In this document: piece after piece, positions 11,301 through 36,616 of the stretch
How positions within the stretch are numbered: position 1 is the first letter of the stretch
Layout: each line of letters opens with the position of its first letter
Source: Fischerella muscicola PCC 7414
GTDB lineage: Bacteria > Cyanobacteriota > Cyanobacteriia > Cyanobacteriales > Nostocaceae
Direction of reading: 5' to 3'
DNA: 38,081 nucleotides
NCBI RefSeq assembly: GCF_000317205.1
Contig: NZ_AJLK01000134.1
Span: 1 to 38,081 of the forward strand
Notes under the pieces: model-generated
Databases searched by the model: none
Seen by the model: only the letters and a program-made list of their open reading frames with translations
What the model was told of the DNA's origin: nothing
Translations under genes and position numbers: made by a program

Positions 11301-12254
11301 ATGCCCAAGGTATCTGTCATTATTCCGGCATACAATGCAATGACTTATCTGCCAGAAACTCTAGAGAGTGTTTTACGGCAGACTTTCACAGATTTTGAAG
11401 TATTAATTGTTAATGATGGTAGTTCAGATCCTATCCTCGCATGGGCTTGTGGAATAGTAGATCCGCGTGTGAAACTGATTTCTCAAGAAAATAAAGGTGT
11501 ATCTGCGGCACGCAACACAGGCATTACCCATGCCCAAGGAGAGTATATAGCGTTTCTGGATGCTGACGATTTGTGGGAGTCAACTAAATTAGAGAAACAG
11601 GTACGTTGTCTGGAAGAAAATCCAGCAATCGGCTTGGTGCATACTTGGATAGTTTTAATTGATGAGCAAGGTAAATCTTCGGGTAGAGTCATATCCTCAA
11701 ATGCAGAGGGTAACGCGTGGAAGCAAGTAGTTGAACACAACCCTATCCAAACTTCCACAGTTTTAGTTCGTCGCTGTTGTTTGGAAACAGTAGGGGTATT
11801 TGACCAAAATTTACGTTCTGCTGAAGATTGGGAATTATGGGTACGTATTGCTTCTCGTTATCTATTGGCAGTAATCAAAGAACCTTTGGTTTTCTATCGA
11901 TTACATGCTGGTAATACAACTAAAAACTGGCGATTGATAGAACAAGGTCTGAGTCCAGTGATTGAGAAAGTGTTCCAATCAATACCACCAGAAGCTCAGT
12001 ATCTAAAACATCGATGCTACGCCCGTGACAACCTCTATCTAGCCTGGAAAGCCCTGCAAAGTGATGACAAAGACTGCAAGTGGGCACGTCATTTTCGGGC
12101 CTCAGCCGTCAAATACTATCCTCAGTTGCGTTACTCTCGCCAGTACATCCGTCTGAGTTTAGCGATCGCAATCATGGAATGGTTTGGGCCATTCGGCTTC
12201 AGCAGAGTGATGGCATTTATTTACATCCTGCGTCGCCGCGTATTCAGTCTATGA
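11301..12254 (+). CDS. GT2-family glycosyltransferase (array copy 2)
   Basis: This 317-residue GT-A fold inverting glycosyltransferase has the nucleotide-binding start PKVSVIIPAYNAM, the NDGSSD loop near residue 40, the DxD motif DADD around residue 91 that holds the metal and nucleotide sugar, and the ED catalytic-base region in RSAEDWELW near residue 178. It is a paralogue of the next two genes, very close in the first 120 residues and more divergent beyond. It should add a sugar to the lipid-linked unit in the cytoplasm. No clear Shine-Dalgarno precedes ATG 11301. Its relatives are typical of cyanobacterial exopolysaccharide clusters, but the specificity is unknown. Confidence 0.9.
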   Translation: MPKVSVIIPAYNAMTYLPETLESVLRQTFTDFEVLIVNDGSSDPILAWACGIVDPRVKLISQENKGVSAARNTGITHAQGEYIAFLDADDLWESTKLEKQVRCLEENPAIGLVHTWIVLIDEQGKSSGRVISSNAEGNAWKQVVEHNPIQTSTVLVRRCCLETVGVFDQNLRSAEDWELWVRIASRYLLAVIKEPLVFYRLHAGNTTKNWRLIEQGLSPVIEKVFQSIPPEAQYLKHRCYARDNLYLAWKALQSDDKDCKWARHFRASAVKYYPQLRYSRQYIRLSLAIAIMEWFGPFGFSRVMAFIYILRRRVFSL

Positions 12255-12425
12255 AGTAGGGGAGGTGGGGAACTCACCGGCCCCCACTCCCCCAAGGGAG
12301 TGGGGATTAGGGGCAGTGGGGAGTGTGGGGAGTATGAGGGGTGTGAGGAGTAAACAACTAACAACTAACCACTAACTACTAACAATTACCAATTACCAAT
12401 TACCAATTACCAAAAACTAAACTAT
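12255..12425. repeat. Hairpin plus tandem heptamer repeats
   Basis: A perfect 10-bp inverted repeat (CCCCACTCCC, 4-base loop, GGGAGTGGGG) lies at 12282-12305 just after the GT2 stop. It is followed by four CTAACNA heptamers (12358-12385) and four AATTACC heptamers (12384-12411). There is no T-run after the hairpin, so termination is doubtful. The block separates GT2 copies 2 and 3. Confidence 0.75.
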
Positions 12426-13385
12426 ATGCCCAAGGTATCTGTTATTATCCCAGCCTACAATAGCATGACTTATCTGCCAAAAACTCTAGAGAGTGTATTG
12501 AGGCAGACTTTCACAGACTTTGAAGTATTAATCATTAATGATGGTAGTTCAGACAATATCGTTGAATGGGCGTTGCAGATAGCAGATCCACGTGTAAGGC
12601 TGATTTCGCAACCAAACCAGGGTGTATCTGTTGCACGCAACACAGGTATTACCCATGCCCAAGGAGAATACATTGCATTTTTAGACGCGGACGATTTATG
12701 GCAACCAACCAAGTTAGAAAAACAAGTGCGTTGTTTGGAGGATAACCCAGCAGTAGGTTTAGTTTATACCTGGACGGATTTTATTGATGAATCAGATCAG
12801 CCTACAGGTGTATCCATTGTTTCCCACGCTGAGGGGAATGTATGGAAGCAAATTGTTGTCAGAGACATGATTTCTACAGGCAGTTCACCCATGATCCGCC
12901 GTGAGTGTTTTGCATCCGTGGGAGTATTTGATGCCAACATTAGTATTGGTGAAGACCGAGATATGTGGACGCGCATTGCTGCTCGTTATCCCTTTGCAGT
13001 GGTCAAAGAACCTTTAACTCTCTATCGTAGACATTCTAGAAATACAACTAAAAACAGCAAAAAAATAGTTCATCAACTGCGTCAAGTGATCGAGAAAAGT
13101 TTTCATTCTGCCCCACTGGAATTGCTGTATTTGCGAAACCAAAGTTACGGCTGGATGAACTTCTTTGCAGCTTGGTCTGCCCTACTAGACGAGAATAACT
13201 ACAAAGACGCTATTAATTACCGTCAGCAAGCGATTTTGCACTACCCTCAAATCCGCTACACATTCATCTACCTACGCCTAAGTTTAGCAATAGCAATCAT
13301 ACGCTGGTTTGGATCTCAAACTTATGAGGAAGTACGAGGACTGACCCGGACTTTGCGACGCCTGATGTTAGGTGCTGCTACCTGA
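12426..13385 (+). CDS. GT2-family glycosyltransferase (array copy 3)
   Basis: This 319-residue paralogue of its neighbours has the same order of motifs: PKVSVIIPAYNSM at the N-terminus, NDGSSD near 40, DADD near 91, and IGEDRDMW near 180 with the catalytic acidic pair. It is closest to copy 4: both share a long C-terminal half including LELLYLRNQSYGWMN. That suggests copies 3 and 4 separated most recently. There is no clear ribosome-binding site because the heptamer block runs almost up to the ATG. Role as for the other GT2 enzymes; substrate unknown. Confidence 0.9.
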   Translation: MPKVSVIIPAYNSMTYLPKTLESVLRQTFTDFEVLIINDGSSDNIVEWALQIADPRVRLISQPNQGVSVARNTGITHAQGEYIAFLDADDLWQPTKLEKQVRCLEDNPAVGLVYTWTDFIDESDQPTGVSIVSHAEGNVWKQIVVRDMISTGSSPMIRRECFASVGVFDANISIGEDRDMWTRIAARYPFAVVKEPLTLYRRHSRNTTKNSKKIVHQLRQVIEKSFHSAPLELLYLRNQSYGWMNFFAAWSALLDENNYKDAINYRQQAILHYPQIRYTFIYLRLSLAIAIIRWFGSQTYEEVRGLTRTLRRLMLGAAT

Positions 13386-13416
13386 TATTATTCTCTTTTT
13401 TTTCAGGAGTTTAAAC

Positions 13417-14376
13417 ATGACAAAAGTTTCTGTTGTGATTCCAGCCTATAATGCTATGACTTATCTGCCAGAAACTCTAGAGAGTGTTTTGAGGCAGACT
13501 TTCGCAGATTTTGAAGTATTAATTATTAATGATGGTAGTTCGGACAAGATTGTGGAATGGGCTGCTGGGATAGTAGACCCACGTGTAAAGTTGATTTCGC
13601 AACCAAATCAGGGTGTATCTGTTGCACGCAACACAGGTATTGCTCAAGCGCAAGGAGAATACATCGCATTCTTGGACGCGGACGATTTATGGGAACCAAC
13701 TAAATTAGAAAAGCAAGTGCGTTGTCTGGAAAATAATCCCGCAGCAGGCTTAGTTTATACCTGGACAGCTTTAATTGATCAGTCGGGCAACCCTATGGGT
13801 ACATTATGGGTTTCCGATATAGAAGGCAATGTATGGGAGCAAATTGTTGTCAAAGACATGATCTCTAATGGCAGTTCACCAATGGTTCGCCGTAGTTGCT
13901 TTGAAACTGTTGGGGTATTCGATCCTCAAATTAGGGGCGTTGAAGACAGAGAAATGTGGATTCGGATTGCTGCTTGCTATCCTTTCGCAGTGGTTAAAGA
14001 ACCCTTAACCCTATATCGTCGTCACCCTGGCAATATGACCAGCAACCGCCAAATGATAATTACAGAATTACGCAAAGTCTTTGAGAAAGCCTTTGAATCT
14101 ACTCCTTTGGAGTTGCTGTATTTGCGAAACCAAAGCTATGGCTGGATGAACTTGTTTGCAGCTTGGGGTTGTATAGAGGACGAGAAGAACTACAAAAAGG
14201 CAATGCATTACCGTCAGCAGGCTGTTTTGCATTATCCCCAATTACACAACACATCTACTTATATAAGCTTGAGTTTAAGAATAGCGACAATGCGCTGGTT
14301 TGGTCTTCAAGGCTACGAGAGAGTGCGAGGAATAACTCGTACTGTGCGTCAACTAATGTTAGGTACTGCTGCCTGA
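13417..14376 (+). CDS. GT2-family glycosyltransferase (array copy 4)
   Basis: This 319-residue GT2 enzyme starts MTKVSVVIPAYNAM. The frame is open from 13372, overlapping the end of copy 3, but ATG 13417 has AGGAG 7 bases upstream and aligns with the other copies, so I use it. NDGSSD, DADD and GVEDREMW are all present. It shares LELLYLRNQSYGWMN and the C-terminal arginine-rich helix with copy 3. The 31-base gap after copy 3 and its own good ribosome-binding site suggest co-transcription. Sugar and linkage cannot be inferred. Confidence 0.9.
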   Translation: MTKVSVVIPAYNAMTYLPETLESVLRQTFADFEVLIINDGSSDKIVEWAAGIVDPRVKLISQPNQGVSVARNTGIAQAQGEYIAFLDADDLWEPTKLEKQVRCLENNPAAGLVYTWTALIDQSGNPMGTLWVSDIEGNVWEQIVVKDMISNGSSPMVRRSCFETVGVFDPQIRGVEDREMWIRIAACYPFAVVKEPLTLYRRHPGNMTSNRQMIITELRKVFEKAFESTPLELLYLRNQSYGWMNLFAAWGCIEDEKNYKKAMHYRQQAVLHYPQLHNTSTYISLSLRIATMRWFGLQGYERVRGITRTVRQLMLGTAA

Positions 14377-22728: not shown

Positions 22729-23628
22729 ATGACACACATCGAAGGAACCTTCGCAGGAGCAGGAGGGCTTAATCTTTATTATCAAAGCTGGCAGCCAGAG
22801 GGAGAATTACGGGCAATTATTGCTATAGTACACGGCTTGGGAGCGCATAGCGGATTATTTATTAATGCCGTGCAGCATTTATTGCCCTTGGGTTATGCTG
22901 TCTACGCTTTTGATCTAAGAGGACATGGGCGATCGCCTGGACAACGAGGGCATATAAATTCTTGGGCAGAGTTGCGAGAAGATTTGCATACCTTTTTGAC
23001 ACATATTCAGGAACAAAGTTTTGGCTGTGCATATTTTTTGTGGGGTCACAGTTTAGGCGCAGTCATAGCTGTAGATTACGCCTTACGCTTTCCTCAAAGC
23101 TTGCAGGGATTGATCCTGACAGCACCTGCTTTAGGAAAAGTTAACCTGCCTCTGTTAAAAGTGGCATTAGGGCGAATGCTTTCACAAGTCTGGCCAAACT
23201 TTAGTCTGAAAGTAGGTTTTGATAAGGGTAAAAATTTGCGAGGCCAGAATTATCTCACCATTCAAGACCCATTAAGGCATGAGTATGGCAGTGCGCGACT
23301 GGCTGCGGAGTTTTTTGCCACTGAAAAATGGGTTGAAACTCATGCTTGTGAGTTACAAGTGCCTTTGCTTATTCTCTATAGCAGTGAAGATAAGATCGCA
23401 CCGCCAGAAGGTTGTGTAGCGTTTTTCCAAAAAATAGCCTTTCCTGACAAAGAAAGCTATGAGTATCCCGGTGACTACCACGACTTTCACCTGGATCTCA
23501 ATTACCAAAAGATACTTGTAGATTTGGAGAATTGGCTAGAAAGACATTTGGATGGAGAAATAGAAAATCAATCATCAAGGTGTCTGATAAAAATACCTAC
23601 TTTTAAGACCAAACCTTTGACTCGTTAG
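22729..23628 (+). CDS. Alpha/beta hydrolase, monoacylglycerol lipase-like
   Basis: This 299-residue serine hydrolase of the Hydrolase_4 (lysophospholipase/monoacylglycerol lipase) group has the oxyanion segment IVHGLGAHSG near residue 36, the nucleophile elbow GHSLG near 106, the acid in SSEDKIAPPEG near 223 and the histidine in YPGDYHDFHLD near 250. It probably releases fatty acid from a monoacylglycerol or lysolipid. I prefer ATG 22729 (MTHIEGTFAGAGG), which matches the usual family start, over the TTG at 22651. Lying upstream of acyl-activating and beta-oxidation-type genes on the same strand, it may supply free fatty acid to them. Direct repeats at 22260 and 23996 flank it. Confidence 0.85.
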   Translation: MTHIEGTFAGAGGLNLYYQSWQPEGELRAIIAIVHGLGAHSGLFINAVQHLLPLGYAVYAFDLRGHGRSPGQRGHINSWAELREDLHTFLTHIQEQSFGCAYFLWGHSLGAVIAVDYALRFPQSLQGLILTAPALGKVNLPLLKVALGRMLSQVWPNFSLKVGFDKGKNLRGQNYLTIQDPLRHEYGSARLAAEFFATEKWVETHACELQVPLLILYSSEDKIAPPEGCVAFFQKIAFPDKESYEYPGDYHDFHLDLNYQKILVDLENWLERHLDGEIENQSSRCLIKIPTFKTKPLTR

Positions 23629-24066
23629 ATGGGTTTCTTTGCGAAAAAGATACAAAGCTTGTCGTTGATCCCCAGCATGGTCTACATTATTATTAGTACA
23701 AAAGACCTTAGTTTAAGACATGTAGGCATGAAATAAGCCTAAGCCTTAAACTGAGATGAATTCTATTTTTAATAGATACAAACTTGAAAGGAGAAATTTA
23801 TTAATTTTCAAGACTTAGGTATTCAAAGTCTGCATCTTAAATGTACCTAATTTGGCATTAATTTTAGCCCAACAATCTTGAGATAATTGATTATCCTTCC
23901 TATTTCATAGGAAAAGAATATATTGGGAACTAGGCAAATATTTTCCTATCTCACAAATGATTTAGGATTGCTGGATGGAACTAGTATTTGATTTTCCTGT
24001 TAAGCGTTCCCTATTCCCTTTCTTACTGATAACGAGGGGAAGAGTCAGAAACTCTTCTTGGAGAAA
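23629..24066. other. Spacer with a long stem-loop
   Basis: No gene is visible. It contains an imperfect stem-loop at 23707-23755 and the second copy of the CCTGTTAAGNGTTCCC element at 23996-24020. Confidence 0.6.
23707..23755 (+). terminator. Stem-loop downstream of the hydrolase gene
   Basis: CTTAGTTTAAG pairs with CTTAAACTGAG (11 bp with one G-U). Inside this, TAGGC pairs with GCCTA around a 9-base loop. A T-run (ATTTTT) follows about 10 bases later. It could terminate the hydrolase transcript or stabilise its 3' end, but the stem is AT-rich and the T-run is offset, so it is not a textbook terminator. Confidence 0.4.
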
Positions 24067-26364
24067 ATGTTATGTACAAATCAGATTTATAAAGCGCCTC
24101 CCAACTCTGGAGAAGTAGTGTTAGGGCGTACTTTGCCTTCCTTATTAGATGAAGCGTGCGATCGCACTCCCAACTCCCGCGCTTTCAATCAAGTTACACA
24201 AACAGGCTGGCAAGCTTTATCTAATCACGAATTTCGCACGGCTGCGACAGAATTGGCATTAGGCTTGCTGGATTTGCAACTAGAAGCAGGCAATCGCATT
24301 GCTTTACTCATGCACAGCGATGTTAATTTTTGCATTGCTGACATGGGTTCCTTGCTTGCAGGTTTGGTGAATGTGCCAATTGATTTAACCCAAACAATTG
24401 AACACATTATTTTCATTTTGCAGCACACAGAAGCCAAGGCGCTGATTATTTCTGATCTAGACTTGCTCTCTCAAATCATTCCTTACCTGCAAAATGCTAC
24501 CCATCTCAAAACAGTAATAGTTGCTGATGTGCCTATTGAGTGGCATCAAAGGCGACAACAATTAACCTGTCAACAAAGTGGGGAATATGAAAAGATACTA
24601 AATGATCAAAATAAGATTATTCCTGATAATCTTTGTTTGTCGCTACCAACCTCACACTCACCAGCAGCGGCTGCACAATCAGTTATAGATATTCCGCAAT
24701 GTATTCAAGTTTTTTCACTAGAGGAAATTCGCTCTCAGGGACGGAAAAAAAATTCTGAATTTAGTTTTCAGGAACTGAATACCAAACTGATAGCTAATAA
24801 CCTTGCCACGATTATTTATATTCCTGGAACTACTGGAGAACCTCAAGGGGTAATGCTTACCCATGAAAATCTCTCTGCTAATGCATTGGCAATGTTTACA
24901 GGAATACCTGATTTGGGATTGGGGACAGAGGAAATAGTTCTTTCTTTTCTGCCATTAACCCATGTTTTTGCTCGTGTCCTTGTCTATGGACATATTAGTT
25001 ATGGTCACAGCATTTATTTCAGCAATTCTAATCGGGTATTAAAACACCTAAAAGAAGTAAAGCCAACAATATTTGCTACAGTTCCTTTGCTCTTAGAAAA
25101 AATTTATCACAAGCTTTTAGAAGCAGGAGAAAAAAATCAGGAACAGAGCAAAAAAGAAAAACATCTACGGGTAAAATTGCCCCGTCCTAATATTACATTG
25201 TCATCCTTAAAGTTTTCTACCAACTGGGTGAGAAAAACCTCGCTTGCTACTTGGCGAGAAGCCACTGTTCGGTTATCTACTACAGGGAGAACCCTAAAAA
25301 CCCATTTACTTTCGCCACACAATGCTATTTCTGCGCGTCAATTCTATCTTCTCTTATCTCAATCGGTGATGAATTGGGCAATCAAAATAGCCCAAAAATA
25401 TGAATTAGGAAAAATACCACAACGTCGATATGCTTTGATGTTGAAATTGGCAGATAGGTTCGTATTTTCCCAGTGGCGTGCTGTCTTTGGTGACAATATC
25501 AAATACCTAATTAGCGGAGGTGCAGCTTTAAAAGCAGAAATTGCGAATTTATTTGCGGCTGCGGGAATAAAAATTTTACAAGGCTATGGTTTAACAGAAA
25601 CTAGTTCTGCCGTAACTTGTAATCGTGGTCAATTCAATCGTGCTGGAACTGTTGGTGTAGCGATCGCTGGCGTAGAAATTACGATAGCCGAAGATGGGGA
25701 AATTCTCACCAGAAGTCCTTACATTACTCAAGGCTATTACAAAAACCCACAAGCTACCCAGCAACTAATCGACACTGAAGGTTGGTTACATACAGGCGAT
25801 TTAGGGGAATTTACTTCTGACGGTTTTCTCAAGATTACTGGTTTGAAGAAAAGCCGTTTTAAACTTTCTACAGGTAAGTATGTCACACCGCAACCAATAG
25901 AAAGCAGGCTAGAAAAATCTCCTTTAGTAACAAAAGCTGTGACTGTCGGGGCTGATCGTAAGTTTTGTGCCATGCTGATTTTTCCTAATTTAGATAATTT
26001 ACAGCAGCAGGCTTTATCAATAGGAATTGATTTACCAATTGAAGAATTACTGAAGCATCCTTGCATCGTTGCTTTATATCAAGCGTTGGTGGATGAAGCG
26101 AATTGTCATTTACCTCATTGGTCAACGGTAAAAAAATTTCGGCTAATTTATGCCAAATTCACTGTTGAGAATGGAGTAATAACGTTAAATCAGGAGGTAA
26201 ATAGAGGCAAAATTTTAGAAGTATTTACTGAAGAAATTAATGCAATATATGAAGATAAGAGGATGCAAAAACATGAGAATGTCACAATAGAACAAATAGA
26301 TAATTTATGTCCGGTGAATCAGAGGTTTTCATGTCCTGCGTTTGCTCAATCTCTGAGTTCTTAG
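24067..26364 (+). CDS. Long-chain acyl-CoA synthetase-like protein (divergent active site)
   Basis: This 765-residue member of the adenylate-forming long-chain fatty acyl-CoA/ACP synthetase family would normally activate fatty acids with ATP. The N-terminal domain has a P-loop-like IPGTTGEPQGVMLTHE near residue 251, YGLTETSSAVT near 505, HTGDLGE near 574 and LSTGKYVTPQPIE near 605. Several canonical residues are changed: the P-loop PKG is PQG, the hinge motif expected as D/G-R-x-K reads GLKKS, and the C-terminal catalytic lysine of the LTPTLK motif aligns with Glu710 in ITLNQEVNRG. It may therefore be inactive or specialised. ATG 24067 is a tentative start; TTG 24058 is also in frame. It is the first gene of the beta-oxidation-like set. 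Confidence 0.82.
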   Translation: MLCTNQIYKAPPNSGEVVLGRTLPSLLDEACDRTPNSRAFNQVTQTGWQALSNHEFRTAATELALGLLDLQLEAGNRIALLMHSDVNFCIADMGSLLAGLVNVPIDLTQTIEHIIFILQHTEAKALIISDLDLLSQIIPYLQNATHLKTVIVADVPIEWHQRRQQLTCQQSGEYEKILNDQNKIIPDNLCLSLPTSHSPAAAAQSVIDIPQCIQVFSLEEIRSQGRKKNSEFSFQELNTKLIANNLATIIYIPGTTGEPQGVMLTHENLSANALAMFTGIPDLGLGTEEIVLSFLPLTHVFARVLVYGHISYGHSIYFSNSNRVLKHLKEVKPTIFATVPLLLEKIYHKLLEAGEKNQEQSKKEKHLRVKLPRPNITLSSLKFSTNWVRKTSLATWREATVRLSTTGRTLKTHLLSPHNAISARQFYLLLSQSVMNWAIKIAQKYELGKIPQRRYALMLKLADRFVFSQWRAVFGDNIKYLISGGAALKAEIANLFAAAGIKILQGYGLTETSSAVTCNRGQFNRAGTVGVAIAGVEITIAEDGEILTRSPYITQGYYKNPQATQQLIDTEGWLHTGDLGEFTSDGFLKITGLKKSRFKLSTGKYVTPQPIESRLEKSPLVTKAVTVGADRKFCAMLIFPNLDNLQQQALSIGIDLPIEELLKHPCIVALYQALVDEANCHLPHWSTVKKFRLIYAKFTVENGVITLNQEVNRGKILEVFTEEINAIYEDKRMQKHENVTIEQIDNLCPVNQRFSCPAFAQSLSS

Positions 26365-26394
26365 ATATTAGGTTTGTGGTGAAGGAGCTAAGAT

Positions 26395-26445
26395 TTAAAT
26401 GAACCGCAGAGGCGCAGAGGACACAGAGAGAAGAGAAAGAGAAGG
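26395..26445 (-). repeat. Dispersed CTCTGCG-type element (inverted copy)
   Basis: The reverse strand reads CTCTTCTCTCTGTGTCCTCT and continues into GCGCCTCTGCGGTTCATTT. This matches, with small changes, the elements at 9421-9473 and 30551-30600, and is a common style of cyanobacterial intergenic repeat. It lies between the synthetase-like gene and fadN. Confidence 0.6.
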
Positions 26446-26531
26446 AAAAATTTGTTTAACTGAACTGTATTGAATTATTTTTAGGTATTCAATCAATCCA
26501 AAATCCAAAATTGAAGAAGGAAGGGTGATGT

Positions 26532-28901
26532 ATGTATAAGCCGTTCCAAAAAGCCGCAGTATTGGGTGCGGGAGTGATGGGTTCACAAATTGCCGCCCAT
26601 TTAGCTAATGCGGGATTAACAGTTCATTTATTAGATATTGCGGCTCAAGGCGACAATAAAAATGATGTTGTAGAAACAGCTTTTAAAAAGGCTATTAAGC
26701 AGTCTCCACCGATTTTATTTACAGAAAAAACAGCCCGTCGTGTTATTTTGGGGAATTTTGACGAGCATTTTCACCGCATTGCTGATGTTGATTGGGTAAT
26801 AGAAGTTGTAGTTGAAAATCTCGCTATTAAACAAGATTTGCTGGCGCGGGTAGAAAGTGTAATTAGGGATGATACTGTAGTGTCTACTAATACTAGTGGT
26901 CTACCTGTTCATGAAATTGCTCAAGGACGTTCTGAGTCTTTTCGGAAGAGGTTTTTAGGAACTCACTTTTTTAATCCGCCGCGCTACTTAAAGTTACTAG
27001 AGTTAATTCCGACACCGGATACTGAGCCGCAAATCCTGGAAAAAATGCAGTGGTTTGCTTGGATGCATCTTGGTAAAGGCGTAGTAGTAGCCAAAGATAC
27101 CCCCAACTTTATAGCCAACCGCATAGGTATGTATGCAACTATGCTGGGTATCCGGGGTGTGACTGAGCAAGGTTACACAATTGAAGAAATTGATACATTA
27201 ACAGGGGTGATTGCTGGACGACCGAAATCAGCGACATTTCGCACGGCTGATTTGGTGGGGTTAGATACTTTGATGTATGTAGCACGCAACCTTTACCCAG
27301 CTATTCCCCACGATGAAAGCCAGGAAGTCTTTCGAGTGCCAGAGTTACTGAAGAAACTCGTAGAAACTGGGTCGTTAGGAGCAAAAACAGGTCAAGGATT
27401 TTACAAAAAGCAAGGTAAGGAAATTCTCTCGATTAATCCGACGACACTGGCTTACGAAGCAGCGAAACCGCTTGATTTAGGGGATATTGAGGCAATTGGG
27501 AAAATTGATGATTTAGGCGATCACTTACGCAAACTCTACCATGATTCTAGTCGTGCTGGTGTATTCTTCCGCAAATTAACCTTAGAAATTCTGGGTTACA
27601 GCGCCCGTCGCATCCCGGAAATTGCCGACAGACCAGCAGATATTGACCGGGCAATCCGGTGGGGTTTTGGCTGGGAACTCGGCCCGTTTGAAATTTGGGA
27701 TGTCTTGGGCTTTGAAACTGTATTGGCAGATATGAAAGCGGCTGGTATATCTGTGCCTGAGTGGGTAGAAAAGATGCACGATTCTGGTGTGCAAAGTTTC
27801 TATCAAAAAGACCGACTATCTTGGGCTGAACAAAAGGTAGTTGATGCTTGTGCAGTCTGCATCAGCGAACAGCCAAAAGCCCCAACAGATGAAATTCAGA
27901 TAGCAGCCATTAAAGAAGATGCCAAAAATATCTTGTGGCAAAACTCAGAAGCTTCTTTGTTGGACTTGGGCGATGGAGTTGTTTTGTACGAGTTTCATTC
28001 CAAAGGCAATACCCTGACTTTAAAAGTAGTAGAAGGCTTAGCCAAAGTATTAGATATTGTCGAAAACGGTGATTATCGAGGATTAGTCATAGGTAACGAC
28101 AGTGCCAACTTCTCTGGAGGGGCGAATTTGGCAGAAATGGCCATGTTAGCCCAGACAGATAACGGTAAAGGCATCGCCGATTTAATCGTCAAATTCCAAA
28201 CCTTACTGCAACGCATGAAATATTTCCCGAAACCAATTGTCGCCGCAATTGTCGGACGAGTTTTAGGCGGAGGTTGTGAGTTAGTCTTGGCTTGTCCTCA
28301 TGTAGTCGCAGCCGCAGAAACTTACATCGGACTGGTAGAACTCGGCGTCGGTTTGATTCCTGGAGGCGGTGGCATCATGCGGATGGTGACTTGGGCAGCG
28401 GATAAAGCCGCCAGCGAATCACCACAAGATATTCAACCCTTCCTGCGAAAAGTGTTTGAAACTGTTGGCATGGCCAAAGTTTCCAGTAGCGCCCATGAAG
28501 GGCAAGAATTAGGCTTCCTCTCACCCACAACCAAAATTGTGATGAATGCTGACCGACTTTTGACTGTAGCGAAAGCGGAAGTGCTGTGTTTAGACCGCAT
28601 AGGTTACATGCCACCACCAAAACGTAACGCCGTCATGGTGCTAGGTCTTCCAGCACGGGCAATGTTGGAACACGCCGCATATGTCATGCAGCAGGGAGGT
28701 TTTATTTCGGAGTATGACAGTTATTTAGCTAGTCGCTTAGCTTATGTGATGACAGGCGGAGAATTGACTGTACCTGCTTTGGTTGATGAAAACTACTTAT
28801 TGAGATTAGAAAGAGAGGCGTTTTTGCCACTATTACAGCAACCAAAAACGCAAGAACGGATTGCTTATATGTTGAAAACGAAGAAACCTCTCAGAAACTA
28901 A
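26532..28901 (+). CDS. fadN: 3-hydroxyacyl-CoA dehydrogenase/enoyl-CoA hydratase fusion (FadN-type)
   Basis: This 789-residue bifunctional enzyme catalyses hydration of enoyl-CoA and NAD-dependent oxidation of 3-hydroxyacyl-CoA. The dehydrogenase comes first: NAD loop GAGVMGSQIAAHLANAG near residue 11, NTSGLPVHEIA, catalytic His145 in GTHFFNPPRYLKLLEL and the Asn of PNFIANRIG. The crotonase domain follows from about residue 480, with GGGCEL (Glu583) and GLVELGVG (Glu603), the two glutamates spaced 20 residues apart as in active hydratases. This order and length match Bacillus FadN rather than the reversed E. coli FadB. GAAGGAAGGG lies 6 bases before ATG 26532. It is followed by fadA and fadE genes on the same strand. 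Confidence 0.92.
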   Translation: MYKPFQKAAVLGAGVMGSQIAAHLANAGLTVHLLDIAAQGDNKNDVVETAFKKAIKQSPPILFTEKTARRVILGNFDEHFHRIADVDWVIEVVVENLAIKQDLLARVESVIRDDTVVSTNTSGLPVHEIAQGRSESFRKRFLGTHFFNPPRYLKLLELIPTPDTEPQILEKMQWFAWMHLGKGVVVAKDTPNFIANRIGMYATMLGIRGVTEQGYTIEEIDTLTGVIAGRPKSATFRTADLVGLDTLMYVARNLYPAIPHDESQEVFRVPELLKKLVETGSLGAKTGQGFYKKQGKEILSINPTTLAYEAAKPLDLGDIEAIGKIDDLGDHLRKLYHDSSRAGVFFRKLTLEILGYSARRIPEIADRPADIDRAIRWGFGWELGPFEIWDVLGFETVLADMKAAGISVPEWVEKMHDSGVQSFYQKDRLSWAEQKVVDACAVCISEQPKAPTDEIQIAAIKEDAKNILWQNSEASLLDLGDGVVLYEFHSKGNTLTLKVVEGLAKVLDIVENGDYRGLVIGNDSANFSGGANLAEMAMLAQTDNGKGIADLIVKFQTLLQRMKYFPKPIVAAIVGRVLGGGCELVLACPHVVAAAETYIGLVELGVGLIPGGGGIMRMVTWAADKAASESPQDIQPFLRKVFETVGMAKVSSSAHEGQELGFLSPTTKIVMNADRLLTVAKAEVLCLDRIGYMPPPKRNAVMVLGLPARAMLEHAAYVMQQGGFISEYDSYLASRLAYVMTGGELTVPALVDENYLLRLEREAFLPLLQQPKTQERIAYMLKTKKPLRN

Positions 28902-29183
28902 GAGGAGGCAGAGGGCAGGAGGTAGAGGGCAGGAGGCAGAGGGCAGGAGGCAGAGGGCAGAAAGCTTTCAAATTAAGAAGTAAGAATTGATAAAAAATTA
29001 ATCTTCTAACGCTTACTTCTTTCTTCGACTATTTAGTTTCTTCGTTAATTATTCCCTTGTACCCTTGAAAATCGATCATCTGCCTTAATTATTCCCTTCA
29101 GCCCTCATTCTTTTCCTTCTGCCCTCTGCCTCCTGCCCTCTGCCTTAATGATCAACACATTTAAACATTGGTCGGAGTTATTT
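28902..29183. repeat. fadN-fadA gap with 29-base perfect inverted repeat
   Basis: GGCAGAG/GGCAGGA heptamers at about 28904-28962 reappear as their reverse complement at 29117-29145. The segments 28934-28962 and 29117-29145 are perfect inverted copies over 29 bases. A shorter inverted pair (AGAAGTAAG at 28976 and CTTACTTCT at 29012) is nested inside. The transcript between fadN and fadA could fold into a large hairpin. Confidence 0.8.
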
Positions 29184-30365
29184 ATGAAAGAAGCTTATAT
29201 AGTTAGCAGTGTCCGCACACCTGTAGGAAAAGCGCCACGGGGTACGTTACACAATATGCGTCCGGATGATATGGGTGCAGTTGTTGTCAAAGCAGCCATT
29301 GAACGAGTTAAAGACTTAGAGCCTGTATACATTGATGATGTAATTATGGGTTGTGCTTTTCCGGAAGCAGAACAGGGATTTAATATCGGGCGGTTAATTG
29401 CCCAACGTGCAGGTTTACCTGATTCTGTAGCAGGTATGACTGTAAATCGATTCTGTGCTTCGGGGTTGCAAAGTATCGCAATCGCAACCCAAGCAATTAC
29501 GGTAGGACAGGCGGAAGTCATTGTTGCGGGTGGTGCGGAGTCTATGAGTTTGATTCCAATGGGAGGACATTATTTGGCCCCCAACCCAAGAATGATGATA
29601 GATACGCCCAAGGTTTACTGCACGATGGGTATTACAGCCGAAAACGTCATGCAGTACTACGAAATCTCCCGCCAAGAACAGGATGCTTTTGCTTTACGTT
29701 CCCATCAAAAAGCTTTAGTTGCCATTAGGCAAGGTCGGTTTACAGAAGAAATCGTACCACTCGAAGTCCGGGACATCCTCTATATTGATGGCACTCCACG
29801 ACCGGTAGAAAAGGTCTTTACGGTGGATGAAGGGCCGCGTCCTGATACCAGTATGGAAGCCTTGATGAAATTATCGCCTGTATTTCGTGTGGGCGGTGGT
29901 GTGACAGCCGGTAACTCATCGCAAATGTCAGACGGTGCAGCAGCAACAGTGGTAATGAGCGATCGCATGGTGCGGATGCTTGATCTCCGTCCGATGGGTA
30001 AGATGTTAGGCTATGCGGTTGCGGGTGTAGCACCAGAAGTGATGGGTATTGGCCCGGTGGAAGCTGTACCTAAAGTTTTAAAACAGGTGGGTTTGACTTT
30101 AAATGACATTGGCTTGATTGAACTCAATGAAGCCTTTGCTGCCCAAACCTTGGCTGTGATTCGCAAACTCGGACTTAACGAGGAAATTGTCAATGTCAAC
30201 GGTGGTGCGATCGCCCTTGGCCATCCTCTCGGTTGCACTGGTGCGAAACTCACAGCTACTCTCCTCCATGAAATGAAACGGCGTAGTGTCCGTTATGGTT
30301 TGGTAACGATGTGTGTTGGTGGGGGAATGGGTGCAGCAGCTGTGTTTGAGAATTTGATGATTTAG
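29184..30365 (+). CDS. fadA: Acetyl-CoA acyltransferase (thiolase), FadA-type
   Basis: This 393-residue thiolase performs the last step of beta-oxidation, cleaving 3-ketoacyl-CoA with CoA to release acetyl-CoA. The catalytic set is complete: nucleophile Cys91 in [10 protein letters not shown], His347 in [11 protein letters not shown] and Cys377 in CVGGGMGAA, plus the NEAFAAQ motif near 311. The biosynthetic direction (acetoacetyl-CoA formation, for example for polyhydroxyalkanoate) is chemically possible for the family, but the fadN and fadE neighbours favour degradation. I start at ATG 29184, with GGAG 6 bases upstream, rather than ATG 29148, which lies next to repeat sequence. The protein length is normal for the family. 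Confidence 0.93.
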
Positions 30366-30366
30366 G

Positions 30367-30528
30367 ACAGAAGGCAGGAGGCAGAGGGCAGAGGGCAGAG
30401 GGCAGAGGGCAGAGGAGGCAGGAGGCAGAGGGCAGAGGGCAGAGGGCAGAGGGCAGAGGGCAGGAGGCAGAAGGCAGAGGGCAGAGGGCAGGAGGCAGAG
30501 GGCAGGAGGCAGAGGGCAGAGGGCAGAA
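30367..30528 (+). repeat. Tandem GGCAGAG heptamer array
   Basis: About twenty near-perfect heptamers (GGCAGAG, with GGCAGGA and GGCAGAA variants) run in tandem directly after the fadA stop. There are no spacers between units, so this is an STRR array and not CRISPR. Related heptamers lie at 28904-28962, 29117-29145 (inverted) and 33043-33070. Confidence 0.85.
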
Positions 30529-30550
30529 GGAATAAATTGTTATATTTTAT

Positions 30551-30600
30551 ACTCTATTTCTCTACTCTGTGCCTCTGCGTCTGGTGCGTGAGTTCATTTT
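30551..30600 (+). repeat. Dispersed CTCTGCG-type element
   Basis: Contains CTGTGCCTCTGCGTCTGGTG followed by GTTCATTTTA. It is similar to 9421-9473 in the same orientation and to 26395-26445 inverted. It sits just upstream of the fadE-type gene. Confidence 0.6.
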
Positions 30601-30621
30601 ACAAATAACGGTGAAATTATA

Positions 30622-33075
30622 ATGAACCTTATTCATCCAACCGTAGTTATTTCTACGCTAATTTTCCTACTACTATTACTTGGTTATATCGGTGTTCCTT
30701 TGTGGGTTTGGTCGGTTTATTTGGCAGCATTGCTAGTATTTTTTCAGACCCCGATCTGGATTTGGGTGATTTTTGGTGCGATCGCTTGCATATTCAATAT
30801 CCCTATTCTGCGGCAAAAGCTGATCACATCCCCATTGATTAAAGCCATTAAAGCCTTGAATTTATTACCAAAAATCTCTGATACTGAACGGGCTGCAATT
30901 GAAGCGGGAAATGTTTGGGTAGATGGAGAATTTTTTTCTGGGAAACCAGACTTCCAAAGAATTAATCAAGAACCATATCCCCAAGTCACACCAGAATTGC
31001 AAGCATTTCTCGATGGCCCGGTGGAACAAGTTTGTCGCATGGTGAGTGATTGGGAAATTTACCGTCGCAAGGATTTACCGCCGGAAGTTTGGGACTATCT
31101 CAAAAAAGAGCGGTTTTTGGGGATGATGATACCCGAAGAATATGGCGGTTTGGGATTTTCTAACTTTGCCTACAGCAATGTGATGACGAAGTTGGCATCT
31201 CGTTCTTTTACCCATATCGCAACTGTGGGGGTGACAAACTCATTGGGCCCGGCAAAATTATTACTCCGCTACGGTACACAGGAACAGAAAAATTATTACC
31301 TACCGCGCCTGGCACGGGGTGAAGAAATTCCTTGTTTTGCGCTGACAGAACCAACTGCCGGTTCAGATGCAGCCAGTATCAAGTCTGAAGGAATCGTGTT
31401 TAGAGGCGAGGATGGCAAGCTTTATTTGCGTCTGAATTGGAAGAAGCGATATATTACCTTAGCTGCGATCGCCACTCTCTTAGGACTAGCTTTCAAATTA
31501 CGTGATCCGGAAAATTACTTGGGTAAAGGTAAAGAAGTTGGCATTACTTGCGTTTTAATTCCTACCGATACACCAGGCGTGAGCATGGGTAGGCGCCACG
31601 ATCCGATGGGTGTGCCTTTTTACAATTCCCCCACGGAAGGACATAACGTTGTCGTGAGCGTTGACCAAATTATCGGCGGTGTAGAACAGGCGGGTAATGG
31701 CTGGAAAATGCTGATGCAAACTTTGGCAGCAGGTCGGGGAATTAGCTTCCCGGCTAGCTGTACGGGAGTAGCAAAATTAGTAGCGAGAGTTACAGGGGCT
31801 TATGCTGTAGTCCGGCAACAATTTGGTTTGTCGATTGGTCGTTTTGAAGGTGTAGAAGAACCTCTAGCACGCATTGGCGGTCTCACCTACTTAATGGAAG
31901 CTGTGCGTACTTATACCTGTGGTGCAGTAGATCAAGGAGAACAACCAGCAGTCATTTCGGCGATCGCTAAATACAGTTTGACAGAACTCTCCCGCAAAAT
32001 TATTAACGACGGCATGGATATTATGGGCGGTGCAGGGATTTGTCGCGGCCCCAGAAATTTATTAGCAAATATTTATACAGCCACCCCAATTTCGATTACC
32101 GTCGAAGGCGCAAACATTCTCACCCGCACCTTAATGATTTTTGGACAAGGAGCGATTCGCTGTCATCCTTATATTTATCAGGAGATTACAGCGCTGGATC
32201 AATCAGATGTCACAGCCTTTGATCAAGCTTTCTGGCATCATCTTGGACTGACGGTACGTAATACTTTTCGCGCCTTGATTCTCAGTATTTCCCGTGGGTA
32301 TTTCGCACACTCTCCCGTCCCAGGTGCAACAGCTAAATATTACCGCAAACTAGAGTGGGCATCTGCTACCTTTGCCTTACTGACTGACATCACTATCTTT
32401 TCCTTTGGTGGCACATTGAAGCGACGAGAAAAGCTGACAGGCAGGTTTGCGGATATTCTCACCTGGATGTACTTAGCAACTGCAACCCTAAGACGCTTTG
32501 AAGCCGAAGGGCGAAAACCAGAAGACTTACCTTTTGTTCACTGGGTAATGCAGTACGCTTTTGCTCAAATCCAGTCAGCCTTTGAGGGAATTTTCCAGAA
32601 TCTCTCTGTACCAGTTCTAGGTACACTGTTTGCTGGGCCTGTAAGTTGGTGGTGGCGACTGAATCCCATTGGTTCCCTACCCAATGATAAACTTGGCAGT
32701 GAAGTTGCCCGGAAACTACAAACTCCCGGACAAATACGCGATCGCCTCACCGCAGGAATTTATATTCCTACTAGTAGCGAAGAAGCATTGGGACGTTTAG
32801 AAAAAGCTTTCATCTTGTTATCCCAAGCTGAACCACTACTCAAAAAGCTCAAAAATGCCAGCCACACAGAGAAACTACCACAGCAAAAACCCGACGAACT
32901 GATTGCAGCCGCCCTCCAAGCCGGAGTGATTAGTAACAAAGAAGTTGAACTCATCTGTGAAGCAGAGTTTGCCCGTAATGATGCAATTCAAGTAGATTCC
33001 TTTACTTTGGAGGAATATTTGCAAGGCAGTCAGGAGAGCAAAGGCAGAGGGCAGATGGCAGAGGGCAGAAGGTGA
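30622..33075 (+). CDS. fadE: Membrane-anchored acyl-CoA dehydrogenase (FadE-type)
   Basis: This 817-residue flavoprotein should catalyse the first oxidation of acyl-CoA to trans-2-enoyl-CoA. It has the architecture of E. coli FadE (about 814 residues). Two or three hydrophobic helices lie in the first 60 residues, then a characteristic SDTERAAIEAG-VWVDGE segment. The acyl-CoA dehydrogenase core has CFALTEPTAGSDAA near 238, and ITVEGANILTRT near 493, whose Glu495 sits where related enzymes have their catalytic base. The long C-terminal domain of the FadE subfamily is present. The last 11 or so residues (GRGQMAEGRR) are encoded by GGCAGAG heptamers and are probably an accidental extension. The electron acceptor is not evident; no ETF genes are nearby. 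Confidence 0.93.
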   Translation: MNLIHPTVVISTLIFLLLLLGYIGVPLWVWSVYLAALLVFFQTPIWIWVIFGAIACIFNIPILRQKLITSPLIKAIKALNLLPKISDTERAAIEAGNVWVDGEFFSGKPDFQRINQEPYPQVTPELQAFLDGPVEQVCRMVSDWEIYRRKDLPPEVWDYLKKERFLGMMIPEEYGGLGFSNFAYSNVMTKLASRSFTHIATVGVTNSLGPAKLLLRYGTQEQKNYYLPRLARGEEIPCFALTEPTAGSDAASIKSEGIVFRGEDGKLYLRLNWKKRYITLAAIATLLGLAFKLRDPENYLGKGKEVGITCVLIPTDTPGVSMGRRHDPMGVPFYNSPTEGHNVVVSVDQIIGGVEQAGNGWKMLMQTLAAGRGISFPASCTGVAKLVARVTGAYAVVRQQFGLSIGRFEGVEEPLARIGGLTYLMEAVRTYTCGAVDQGEQPAVISAIAKYSLTELSRKIINDGMDIMGGAGICRGPRNLLANIYTATPISITVEGANILTRTLMIFGQGAIRCHPYIYQEITALDQSDVTAFDQAFWHHLGLTVRNTFRALILSISRGYFAHSPVPGATAKYYRKLEWASATFALLTDITIFSFGGTLKRREKLTGRFADILTWMYLATATLRRFEAEGRKPEDLPFVHWVMQYAFAQIQSAFEGIFQNLSVPVLGTLFAGPVSWWWRLNPIGSLPNDKLGSEVARKLQTPGQIRDRLTAGIYIPTSSEEALGRLEKAFILLSQAEPLLKKLKNASHTEKLPQQKPDELIAAALQAGVISNKEVELICEAEFARNDAIQVDSFTLEEYLQGSQESKGRGQMAEGRR
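33043..33070 (+). repeat. GGCAGAG heptamers inside the fadE 3' end
   Basis: Four tandem heptamers (GGCAGAG, GGCAGAT, GGCAGAG, GGCAGAA) lie in frame at the end of the fadE-type reading frame, 3 bases before its stop codon. Confidence 0.8.
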
Positions 33076-33534: not shown

Positions 33535-35118
33535 ATGAAGGTTGGTATTCCCAAAGAAGTTTACCCTGGCGAACGTCGTGTAGCTGCTACACCAGACACA
33601 GCCAAGCGTCTAATGAAGCTTGGTTTCGATGTACTAGTTGAGAGGCGTGCGGGCGCAGATGCAAACTTTGCAGATGAAGCATATATACAGGCTGAATGCA
33701 CGATTGTTCCAGATGCTCCCACTCTATGGGCACAGTCAGATATTGTACTTAAGGTTCGTCCACCGCAAATGCACCCGGAAGTCGGCAAACATGAAACCGA
33801 ACTACTGCGTGAGGGAGGTACGCAAATCAGTTTCATCTGGCCAGCCCAAAACCCGGATTTACTCGATAAACTAGCAGCACGTAAAGCCACAGTTTTAGCA
33901 ATGGATGCAGTACCGCGCATTACTAGGGCACAAAAGATGGATGCCCTAAGTTCAATGGCAAATCTTGCTGGCTACCGCGCTGTAATTGAGGCTGCTAACC
34001 ACTTTGGACGCTTCTTTAACGGACAGATTACGGCAGCCGGAAAGGTGCAACCTGCGAAGGTACTGGTGATTGGTGCTGGTGTAGCTGGACTAGCAGCTAT
34101 CGGTACCGCCAAGAACTTAGGTGCAATTGTTCGTGCTTTTGATACGCGCCTTGTAGTTAAAGAACAGGTACAGAGTCTAGGTGCAGAGTTTCTAGAACTG
34201 AATTTTGCTGAAGATGGCACGGGTGAGGGCGGCTACGCCAAGGTCATGAGTGACGAATTTATCAAGGCTGAAATGGAATTGTTCGCCGCTCAAGCTCAAG
34301 AAGTAGACATTATCATTACGACGGCGCTGATCCCAGGTAAGAGAGCGCCTGTACTGATTACACAGGAAATGGTCGAGAGCATGAAGGAGGGATCGGTCAT
34401 TGTTGATATGGCCGCAGAACAGGGCGGTAATTGTGCCTGTACTCACCCCGGTGAAATTTATTGTTACAAGGGAGTGACGATTGTTGGTCTGACTGACCTA
34501 CCCAGCCGTATGGCCCAACAAGCAAGCCAGCTTTATGGCAGCAATCTTTACCATCTTCTGGAAGAAATGGGAGGAGCGAAAAACTACAAAGTCGATCTCG
34601 AAAACGAGGTGATTCGGGGTACTTTAGTAGTTCATCAAGGAGAGATTACCTGGCCGCCACCGAAGAAAGCAGGGGGCGCAGGAGGACAACAGAAGCAGGA
34701 GGAAAAGAAGAAAGAGCCTACCCTTGTCCCTCCATCTCCCCATCTCCCTGTCCCATCCCCTACTTCTAGTTCCTCAAAGGGTAGTAGTAACCTGCTATGG
34801 CTAATCTTTGTTGGTTTAGCCCTCGTCGGTATTGGTATAAGTGCGCCTGTTTCATTCTTATCTCATTTGATTGTGTTTGTTCTGGCTTGCTTTGTTGGTT
34901 GGCAGGTGATCTGGAACGTTAAGCCTGCTCTCCATACACCACTGATGAGTGTCACCAATGCGATTAGCGGCATCATTATTATTGGTGGTATGCTGCAACT
35001 GTCTGGGGTATCAAGTTCATCGACTATCTTAGGAGCGATCGCTATTTTCGTCGGGACAATCAATATTTCTGGTGGCTTCCTAGTCACGCAACGGATGCTC
35101 AGGATGTTCCAAAAGTAG
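33535..35118 (+). CDS. pntA: NAD(P) transhydrogenase alpha subunit
   Basis: This 527-residue PntA forms, with PntB, the proton-translocating transhydrogenase that exchanges hydride between NADH and NADP+. Domain I opens with [20 protein letters not shown] and has the NAD loop [20 protein letters not shown] near residue 178, followed by AFDTR. Four membrane helices fill the C-terminus from about residue 420, including a [12 protein letters not shown] helix. In some cyanobacteria and other bacteria the alpha subunit is split in two; here it is one chain joined by a proline- and glutamine-rich linker (residues about 375-418). The [10 protein letters not shown] part of this linker looks like translated intergenic repeat. 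AAGGAG is 7 bases before the ATG. pntB follows after 13 bases. Confidence 0.95.
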
Positions 35119-35131
35119 AGAGAAAAGAATT

Positions 35132-36616
35132 ATGTCGAACAATCTACTGACAGTCGCCTATATAGTGGCTAGCGCCTTATTTATTCTCAGTCTCGGGGGA
35201 CTGTCTAATCAGGAAACTGCTCGCCAAGGTAATGTTTACGGCATAGTTGGTATGCTGATTGCTCTGGTTGCTACCGCATTCTCTCTAGACGTAACTACAT
35301 ACGGCATCCTCACGTCAATTGTCATCCCAGGAGCCGTCATCGGTGCAATTGTGGCTTCTCGGGTAGCGATGACCTCGATGCCAGAACTAGTGGCAATTCT
35401 ACACAGCTTTGTAGGGATGGCAGCAGTTCTGGTGGGCATTGCCAATTATCTGCAAGAGTCGATAGAACTCACCCCAGTTGAGTCTACAATTCACGAAATT
35501 GAAATTTTTGTGGGTGTGTTTATTGGTGCTGTCACCTTCACAGGTTCGGTGGTTGCCTTTGGCAAACTGCGGGGTATCATCAGCAGCAAACCTCTGCTTT
35601 TGCCAGGGCGACACTTGCTCAACCTGGGGATGATTGCGGCTTCTGTATGGCTGGGTTTCGAGTTTTTGACAACAGCACATCTGAGTGGACTGCAATCGCT
35701 GTTAGCGATGTTTGTGATCTCTTCAATCTTGGGCATTCATCTAGTGATGGCGATCGGTGGTGCTGATATGCCAGTGGTGATCTCCATGCTCAATAGCTAC
35801 TCTGGATGGGCAGCCGCCGCCGCTGGTTTCATGCTATCGAACGATTTGCTGATCATTACGGGGGCGCTGGTGGGCAGTAGTGGTGCTATCCTCAGCTATA
35901 TCATGTGTAAGGCCATGAACCGTTCCTTCCTCAGCGTGATTCTTGGGGGCTTTGGTGAGCAAACAAGTGCAGCAACTCCTAGTGGAGAGAAATTGGAGGG
36001 TAATGTCACTACAGCAACAATTGAGGATACCGTGCAACTGTTGCAAAATGCCAAGAGTGTCATCGTTGTCCCTGGCTACGGTATGGCAGTAGCTCAAGCC
36101 CAGCATACCGTATCAGAACTCACAAAGTTGCTGCGCGATCGCGGCGTCCAGGTTCGGTTTGGCATCCATCCGGTAGCTGGTAGGATGCCTGGACATATGA
36201 ACGTCCTTCTGGCTGAAGCTAATGTACCCTACGACATCGTCCTAGAAATGGATGAGATTAACGAGGACTTTCCCAAAACTGATGTGGTGCTGGTGATCGG
36301 TGCAAACGACACTGTTAACCCCAGTGCTTTGGAAGATCCTCAGAGTCTGATTGCTGGTATGCCAGTCTTAGAAGTCTGGAAAGCTGGTACTGTCGTAGTC
36401 ATGAAACGGAGTATGGCTAGTGGCTACGCTGGTGTTGAGAATCCTCTGTTTTATAAAGACAACACCCGGATGCTATTTGGCGATGCGAAGAAAAATCTGG
36501 ATGCGATCGTAGCAAAACTTGTACAGTTAAGTGAGGGAAGTGTAGAGTTGCGCCAGCCTGCATTTGATGATGTACCGTTAACAGGCAAAGTATTAAACCT
36601 CTTGCATGAATCCTAA
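35132..36616 (+). CDS. pntB: NAD(P) transhydrogenase beta subunit
   Basis: This 494-residue PntB provides most of the proton channel and the NADP(H)-binding domain III. Eight or so membrane helices fill residues 1-265. Domain III follows with [13 protein letters not shown] near 312, the [20 protein letters not shown] loop near 343, [10 protein letters not shown] near 390 and [17 protein letters not shown] near 430, all characteristic. It is 13 bases downstream of pntA and surely co-transcribed. The stretch between the last helix and domain III ([20 protein letters not shown]) is typical linker. The pair links the NADH and NADPH pools through the proton gradient of the thylakoid or cytoplasmic membrane. 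Confidence 0.95.

Follow-up and report, generated by a model that had tools for sequence, protein, structure and literature searches.

According to the available text of a review, cyanobacteria have no complete β-oxidation pathway (PMC7181335), and the available text of a second paper states the same of Synechocystis (PMC11973298). β-Oxidation genes of a cyanobacterium are already named in print: as given in the available part of PMC6424891, four such genes of Chlorogloeopsis fritschii PCC 9212, UYEDRAFT_05553-05556, were upregulated approximately 10-fold once cells had spent 48 h under far-red light, and rfpBC mutants showed a 15- to 70-fold rise, a response that the authors link to energy limitation. 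In the open-licence literature, as far as its text was available, this is the only source found that names cyanobacterial β-oxidation genes by locus, and the available parts of PMC5217662, PMC13101131, PMC12214013 and PMC3446811 hold nothing on such genes by locus. Here we analyzed a 38,081-nucleotide contig of Fischerella muscicola PCC 7414 (NZ_AJLK01000134.1; its whole length is hereafter called the window) and describe a five-gene cluster at 22729-33075 which, from its sequence and its occurrence in other genomes, probably encodes a functional, horizontally spread module for fatty-acid breakdown in which the core is normal and the ends are unusual. The first-pass annotation of this DNA had reported a complete β-oxidation gene set and described most cyanobacteria as lacking that pathway, the latter in agreement with the two sources cited above.

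The cluster can be set beside three described systems. The Chlorogloeopsis genes are presumed to belong to the same module, which strain PCC 6912 of that species carries (locus L043); the available text of PMC6424891 has nothing on electron transfer flavoprotein (ETF), on motif loss or on the spread of the genes. The Bacillota fadN-fadA-fadE genes on plasmids of Priestia megaterium and Paenibacillus cellulositrophicus share the gene order and have FadN proteins of 42-44% identity, but their FadE is short (594-amino-acid class, 28% local identity) whereas the cyanobacterial one is long; furthermore, the Paenibacillus locus is flanked by genes for both ETF subunits, alpha and beta, and for an ordinary fatty acid-CoA ligase, whereas the ligase of the cyanobacterial cluster is motif-less and ETF was not found. 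E. coli FadE is 47% identical over 97% of the protein and shares the ACDH_C domain, a hydrophobic N-terminus and the catalytic Glu. No ETF partner is known for it and direct quinone reduction is considered possible, the electron acceptor being an open matter there as well (PMC11495604 and PMC9329746, in the parts available); H2O2 production by the enzyme has been reported, with a comparison to acyl-CoA oxidase (PMC11495604, available part). It differs in that the cyanobacterial FadE proteins form their own clade (support 100/100) and in that E. coli encodes ETF homologues, none of which were found in the cluster-bearing genomes.

The Cluster Encodes a β-Oxidation Core With Its Catalytic Residues

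The five genes lie on the plus strand in the order that the first-pass annotation had given. Domain and family calls were made from Pfam and NCBIfam model matches on the open reading frames (ORFs) of the window, and the features of the cluster are:

22729-23628, plus strand: α/β hydrolase, monoacylglycerol-lipase-like, nucleophile Ser134 (Hydrolase_4, 198.9 bits)
23630-23727, plus strand: conserved non-coding block between the hydrolase gene and acs (alignment and model matches across loci)
24058-26364, plus strand: acs, acyl-CoA-synthetase-like protein of 768 amino acids, probable pseudo-synthetase (AMP-binding, 201.3 bits; AMP-binding_C_3, 51 bits)
26532-28901, plus strand: FadN, 3-hydroxyacyl-CoA dehydrogenase followed by enoyl-CoA hydratase, 789 amino acids (3HCDH_N, 3HCDH, ECH_1; His145, Glu583, Glu603)
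29184-30365, plus strand: FadA thiolase (Thiolase_N and Thiolase_C; Cys103, His359 and Cys389, numbered on the ORF from 29148)
30622-33075, plus strand: long, E. coli-type FadE acyl-CoA dehydrogenase, 817 amino acids (NF007000, 1066 bits; ACDH_C, 341 bits; Glu495; hydrophobic N-terminus)

The β-oxidation core, i.e., acyl-CoA dehydrogenase, hydratase, 3-hydroxyacyl-CoA dehydrogenase and thiolase, is thus present in the window with all its catalytic residues. The fusion type of FadN was confirmed across its full length, with the dehydrogenase domain first and the hydratase domain second, and the nearest named model, NF052272, matched residues 6-789 at 689 bits, below its cut-off of 999 bits. A residue check confirmed the earlier statements that FadN keeps His145, Glu583 and Glu603 and that FadA keeps Cys91, His347 and Cys377; the latter correspond to the residues listed above, and the numbering differs because the earlier reader used the internal ATG at 29184, the probable start within a mechanical ORF of 405 codons from 29148. 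FadA scored 563 and 537 bits with two acyl-/acetyl-CoA thiolase models, below the curated cut-offs of both, 402 bits with the E. coli FadA model and 281 bits with PhaA, and a PhaA-like biosynthetic thiolase is disfavored, by these model scores only. FadE carries three acyl-CoA dehydrogenase domains in addition to the ACDH_C domain of long FadE; it clears the long-FadE model NF007000 (cut-off 600 bits) and fails NF038187, the model for E. coli FadE proper (915 bits versus a cut-off of 1300). The mechanical ORF of the hydrolase has 325 codons from 22651, from which Ser134 is numbered, with the probable start at an ATG 26 codons inside (22729), and of its 16 PDB sequence matches at 1e-10, 14 bear the name monoacylglycerol lipase or monoglyceride lipase.

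Gene Order Is Conserved in 23 Cyanobacterial Loci

We assembled 23 cyanobacterial loci, comprising the window, 16 loci from a scan with six short FadN peptides, five from a further search and one on a plasmid; the peptide scan covered one genome per species and yielded 23 loci in all, of which these 16 had cyanobacterial-type clusters. The genes co-occur and stay adjacent more often than chance would give: acs-fadN-fadA stand in this order in every locus, fadE follows fadA in 22 (the sequence piece of L050 ends first) and the hydrolase gene is directly upstream in 20. The hydrolase gene was not found in the examined stretches of L053, L079 and L082, and in the L053 genome it lies approximately 18 kb away on the same strand. 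In L080 the hydrolase is fused ahead of the synthetase-like protein in a single frame of 1021 amino acids. No other family was common to at least four of 22 loci, except for ORFs antisense to cluster genes. The nucleophile Ser is present in 20/20 loci that have the hydrolase, and the catalytic residues of hydrolase, FadN, FadA and FadE are invariant in the 20-23 loci available per gene, with the exception of FadN His145 in L112, which lies in a broken fadN. Over 15 comparisons of cluster genes, the ratio of nonsynonymous to synonymous substitution rates (dN/dS) was 0.08-0.23.

The Module Is Scattered Across Cyanobacterial Genomes

The source genome (6.9 Mb) is a draft in 270 contigs, and contamination was checked and rejected. 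FadN is 95% identical to the copy of Fischerella thermalis PCC 7521, where the flanking genes match too; two genomes of the same genus carry it at 95-97%, one of them (G529) a single contig, and the same gene order recurs in named cyanobacterial isolates. Sampling 386 genomes across the phylum gave some FadN match in 35 and some FadE match in 45. The class of the window is oxygenic, and the other classes of the phylum are not known to be. Full-length FadN was found in six genomes of the window's class (G000, G334, G060, G193, G211 and G185) and, at 42-46%, in G047 and G053 of other classes, while full-length long FadE was found in the identical six and in G001, G007 and G016 of other classes. 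The 217 genomes of the window's family gave 21 FadN matches, 19 of them full-length (approximately 1 in 11). Of the two partial ones, that of G517 covers 62%, contains a stop and lies where its contig ends, and that of G598 covers 44%, in an assembly that is 85% complete. In Acaryochloris sp. 'Moss Beach' the set is located on plasmid pMB02 (276,907 bases), with fadN unannotated and acs split. The earlier suggestion of a lineage-specific ability was not borne out by this scattered occurrence and plasmid copy; the module instead appears patchy and mobile. The assumption that cyanobacteria have no complete β-oxidation underlies cyanobacterial fatty-acid engineering, yet by the full-length FadN count the core occurs in 19 of the 217 family genomes.

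Two database labels met during the survey are doubtful. The cluster of L045 (JAAUUT010000127.1, labelled Candidatus Gracilibacteria), one of the 16 from the peptide scan, is near-identical in trees to the Hydrococcus copy L052 and the contig is probably misbinned; FadN and FadA of L054 (BNCN01000006.1, labelled Comamonas sp. KCTC 72670) fall beside Myxococcus vastator on very short branches in a genome of 9 Mb, and the label is probably wrong. Four cyanobacterial genomes without the module (G125, G167, G278 and G352) have adjacent stand-alone 3-hydroxyacyl-CoA-dehydrogenase and acyl-CoA-dehydrogenase genes of approximately 30% identity, perhaps biosynthetic.

The Synthetase-Like Protein Keeps Its Fold and Lacks Adenylation Residues

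Adenylation depends on the P-loop Lys, A8 Arg and A10 Lys positions. To examine these, 20 cluster proteins were aligned with 15 references (nine genomic Aas, two FadD-type proteins and four plasmid long-chain ligases). The results showed that the P-loop Thr is retained in 3/20 and the P-loop Lys in 2/20 cluster rows, versus 15/15 references for each; A8 Arg is retained in none of the 20 versus 15/15, and A10 Lys in none versus 14/15, the single miss being a shifted row. The acidic position of A8 is Ser or Ala in all 20 cluster rows (references: Asp 11, Glu 3, Gln 1), while A5 Glu stays in 18 and A7 Asp in 20. In the window protein, Gln263 replaces the P-loop Lys, Leu596 and Ser599 stand in A8 and Glu713 replaces the A10 Lys, and GYGLTE (509) and TGD (579) are retained. 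The earlier designation as acyl-CoA synthetase-like therefore holds for the AMP-binding fold and does not extend to adenylation: ATP-dependent activation by the cluster protein is unsupported, the residues for it being gone in 18-20 of the 20 rows.

The acs gene is nevertheless present in 23/23 loci and forms one clade (support 100), and its dN/dS of 0.12-0.23, the highest among the five genes, is still well below 1. Because the motifs are lost and yet the gene is kept in this way, we read its product as probably a conserved pseudo-synthetase that serves in binding or transfer or as a scaffold. It is not an orthologue of the cyanobacterial acyl-acyl carrier protein (acyl-ACP) synthetase Aas: a separate Aas is encoded in 9/9 genomes examined, and the 20 cluster rows and nine Aas fall in separate clades (support 100). 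The two proteins share the AMP-binding fold and are encoded in the same genomes, but Aas retains the adenylation motifs that the cluster protein lacks. The genomic synthetase search used the divergent cluster protein as query (E <= 1e-30), and further intact synthetases elsewhere in a genome are possible. The nearest outside relatives in the plasmid collection are long-chain fatty acid-CoA ligases of Rhodococcus, Nonomuraea and Halocatena plasmids (27-37% identity), which group with the cluster protein at support 90 and differ from it in keeping the P-loop Thr/Lys, A8 Arg and A10 Lys in 4/4. The retention of a synthetase-like protein without adenylation residues raises the question of how acyl chains reach CoA.

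Cluster-Bearing Genomes Yield No ETF and Seldom a Full Isocitrate Lyase

ETF (PF01012, both subunits) was found in 0/20 cluster-bearing genomes of the oxygenic class (0/6 and 0/14, the genome of L049 being left out), versus 10/14 controls; PF01012 also matched in G001, G400 and G401, and gave no match in G047 or in four genomes without the cluster (G019, G022, G024 and G167). Given that ETF was found in none of the 20, FadE must use another electron acceptor. Plastoquinone is favored here, and we infer that its pool is the likeliest acceptor because the N-terminus of FadE is hydrophobic; by hydropathy this holds for the copies of the window, L082, L112, E. coli and Legionella, with L085 below threshold. 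The way in which the long FadE is re-oxidized is an open question in the available text of two papers (PMC11495604, PMC9329746), and its retention in genomes that yielded no ETF removes a confounder that is present in E. coli.

A full isocitrate lyase (two-part match above 150 bits) was found in 4/20 cluster-bearing genomes (1/6 and 3/14), namely G334, HT-58-2, Chlorogloeopsis fritschii PCC 6912 and a Hydrococcus assembly; G334 was the sole genome of its class with a full match in its survey. The genome of the window organism gave only a partial match of 55.7 bits. With full isocitrate lyase in just these four, the glyoxylate shunt was rejected as a constant partner of the module.

The Module Appears Composite in Origin

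Phylogenetic trees were built with minimum row lengths of 600 amino acids for FadE and FadN, 300 for FadA and 550 for the synthetase (which drops L045, L047 and L112). Two short, distant rows, which had placed the FadE root inside the cyanobacteria, were removed; the last FadE tree also leaves out L060 and L115. The cyanobacterial rows formed a single clade for each protein (FadA 99, FadN 100, synthetase-like protein 100, FadE 100/100). In the unrooted FadE tree the neighboring branch consists of the long FadE of G001, G007 and G016 from other classes of the phylum (100/99), whereas FadN and FadA are nearer Bacillota or Legionella/Azospira types, on long branches flagged as unsafe. The module looks composite because the neighbors of FadE and those of FadN and FadA differ in lineage. 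A donor was not found, and a long-FadE match occurred in 1/77 genomes of the myxobacterial phylum. On a Piscirickettsia salmonis plasmid (NZ_CP039041.1), a FadN-type match (35% identity) and a long-FadE-type match (43%) are near each other and keep this order; the FadN/long-FadE pairing is therefore not confined to cyanobacteria.

When the window was compared with the copies of Nostoc, Tolypothrix and Mojavia, synonymous divergence (dS) was 0.55-0.73 for FadN and 0.58-0.70 for FadE, versus 1.58-2.91 and 1.12-1.93, respectively, for other copies. These low values are suggestive of exchange of the module among Nostocales, and no stronger reading is intended; the aas gene gave 1.34-1.64 against four other genomes, which are not the genomes of the FadN and FadE comparison.

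A Conserved Block Upstream of acs Is a Putative Promoter

The block that follows the hydrolase gene is alignable in 16 loci; a model built from six of them recovered it in the other 10, with E values of 2e-20 to 2e-4, whereas the remaining 7/23 loci gave no match. It contains a promoter-like pair, TTGATC-17-TATTAT, at 23665-23693, with GTAC-N3-GTAC downstream of the pair in several loci. A 32-base pattern (23641-23672, up to three mismatches) was found in 15/17 cluster-bearing entries, or 13/15 if each of two pairs that share their coordinates is taken as one entry, and in 0/3 entries without the cluster, and a reversed control matched nowhere. The pattern is single-copy except in the L053 genome, in which a copy also stands after the hydrolase gene at its displaced site. 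The block probably serves as promoter for acs and the fad genes. A whole promoter scan gave nine sites versus 24.1 in shuffles, i.e., fewer than in shuffled sequence.

In Scytonematopsis (G398:C34, 203711-221411; L162 and L163), the hydrolase gene lies approximately 18 kb from acs with the conserved block at both ends, an arrangement suggestive of an insertion at the block.

A Proposed Breakdown Route and Its Alternatives

We favor a functional, horizontally spread breakdown module, a reading held with fair but not full confidence, because the families and residues fit and the order is kept in 23 loci; because of the hydrolase-synthetase fusion in L080, the low dN/dS and the single cyanobacterial clade of each protein; because full-length FadN and long FadE share the same six genomes of the window's class out of 386; because ETF was found in none of the 20 genomes versus 10/14 controls and the adenylation motifs are lost; and because four β-oxidation genes were induced in published work (PMC6424891, available part). 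What stands of the first-pass catabolic interpretation is the degradative core cycle with its residues and the absence of contamination; the complete or full pathway does not, as the synthetase looks inactive and ETF was found in 0/20, and neither does lineage specificity. A catabolic role of the core is likely, with activation and electron exit unexplained. Use in the dark, in heterocysts or for storage lipids, as suggested earlier, may be conceivable; the one physiological report found is the induction in far-red light in Chlorogloeopsis (PMC6424891, available part).

In such a route the hydrolase would free acyl chains from mono- or diacyl lipids, and the synthetase-like protein would probably bind them or hand them over, with ATP-dependent activation supplied by another enzyme, such as the separately encoded Aas or a further synthetase. 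From family and kept residues, FadE would form the 2-enoyl thioester, FadN would hydrate it and oxidize the product with NAD, and FadA would release acetyl-CoA. Electrons from FadE would most likely enter the plastoquinone pool, and acetyl-CoA would probably be respired or re-used, since the window organism's genome has no full isocitrate lyase. The route would most likely come into play when energy is short and membranes are being turned over, as reported for Chlorogloeopsis under far-red light (PMC6424891, available part).

Several points weigh against this reading. The acs gene is split over two reading frames in L045, L047 and L112, the last of which also has the broken fadN, and the loss of activation and ETF could signal a decayed pathway. 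ETF:quinone oxidoreductase (PF05187) was found in 0/20 cluster-bearing genomes, a weak result as only 3/14 controls matched and neither of the ETF-positive G400 and G401 did. An AlphaFold model of FadE was too poor to be used (mean predicted local distance difference test, pLDDT, 47; predicted template modelling score, pTM, 0.47). The induced UYEDRAFT_05553-05556 are likely, by a presumed locus-tag match, the genes of this module.

The alternatives differ mainly in what they make of the two unusual ends. If the cluster synthetase were active despite its odd residues and supplied acyl-CoA to FadE, β-oxidation would be of the ordinary kind; the protein always adjoins fadN, keeps the GYGLT and TGD motifs, has a P-loop in which GTTG can still be made out in the window and in L039, and shows the dN/dS given above, but the loss of A8 Arg and A10 Lys from all 20 rows and of the P-loop Lys from 18, set against their near-universal retention in the references, makes us consider this unlikely. 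At the other end, FadE might be an oxidase that passes electrons to O2, makes H2O2 and has no need of quinone. The missing ETF and the H2O2 made by E. coli FadE would fit; the hydrophobic N-terminus seen in most FadE copies examined, the window's included, suits a membrane acceptor better, and the H2O2 of E. coli is described as leakage, with direct quinone reduction possible (PMC11495604, available part), so that we regard an oxidase as similarly doubtful. A bolder combination is that β-oxidation has been re-wired to run without an in-cluster ATP-driven synthetase or ETF: lipase and pseudo-synthetase would pass chains to CoA directly, from lipid or from Aas-made acyl-ACP, membrane-bound FadE would feed plastoquinone, and the module would move between phototrophs. 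We put this forward tentatively, as an improbable form of the module on present evidence; if true, fat burning and photosynthesis would share one quinone pool.

It is less probable still that the set has no part in energy supply and instead shortens or salvages acyl chains on behalf of some special lipid or secondary product. The 16/20 cluster-bearing genomes without full isocitrate lyase and the missing in-cluster activation speak for trimming or recycling, but the thiolase is closest to acyl-CoA thiolase models and not to PhaA, no biosynthetic gene is common to at least four of 22 loci, and induction was reported under energy limitation (PMC6424891, available part). Contamination or a decaying relic is very improbable: a draft of 270 contigs, two missing ordinary links (activation and ETF) and the broken copies in L112 would be in keeping with it, but the same neighbors occur in F. 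thermalis PCC 7521, the one-contig genome of the same genus has the cluster, dN/dS is 0.08-0.23 and the window genes are without internal stops. As for the breakdown module itself, no mention of its spread, plasmid copy, conserved block, ETF absence or motif-less synthetase was found in the open-licence literature. 'ACOX1' was measured in Nostoc flagelliforme according to the available text of PMC9222375, and was not used as evidence.

Neighboring Genes and Repeats

Two genes downstream of fadE are probably outside the module:

33535-35118, plus strand: pntA (TIGR00561, 788 bits)
35132-36616, plus strand: pntB (NF006974, 715 bits)

They were rejected as part of the module, as they adjoin the cluster in only 2/22 loci, the window and L039 (F. 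thermalis PCC 7521). Upstream, positions 911-21428 of the window are taken up by an extended series of genes for glycosyltransferases, polysaccharide export and methyltransferases, including three similar family-2 glycosyltransferase ORFs in tandem at 11301-14376. Within the cluster, runs of GGCAGA/GGCAGAGG-type repeats lie in the intergenic spaces at 28902-29147 and 30366-30560; L039 has far shorter runs, and the loci of Nostoc, Tolypothrix and Mojavia have nearly none.

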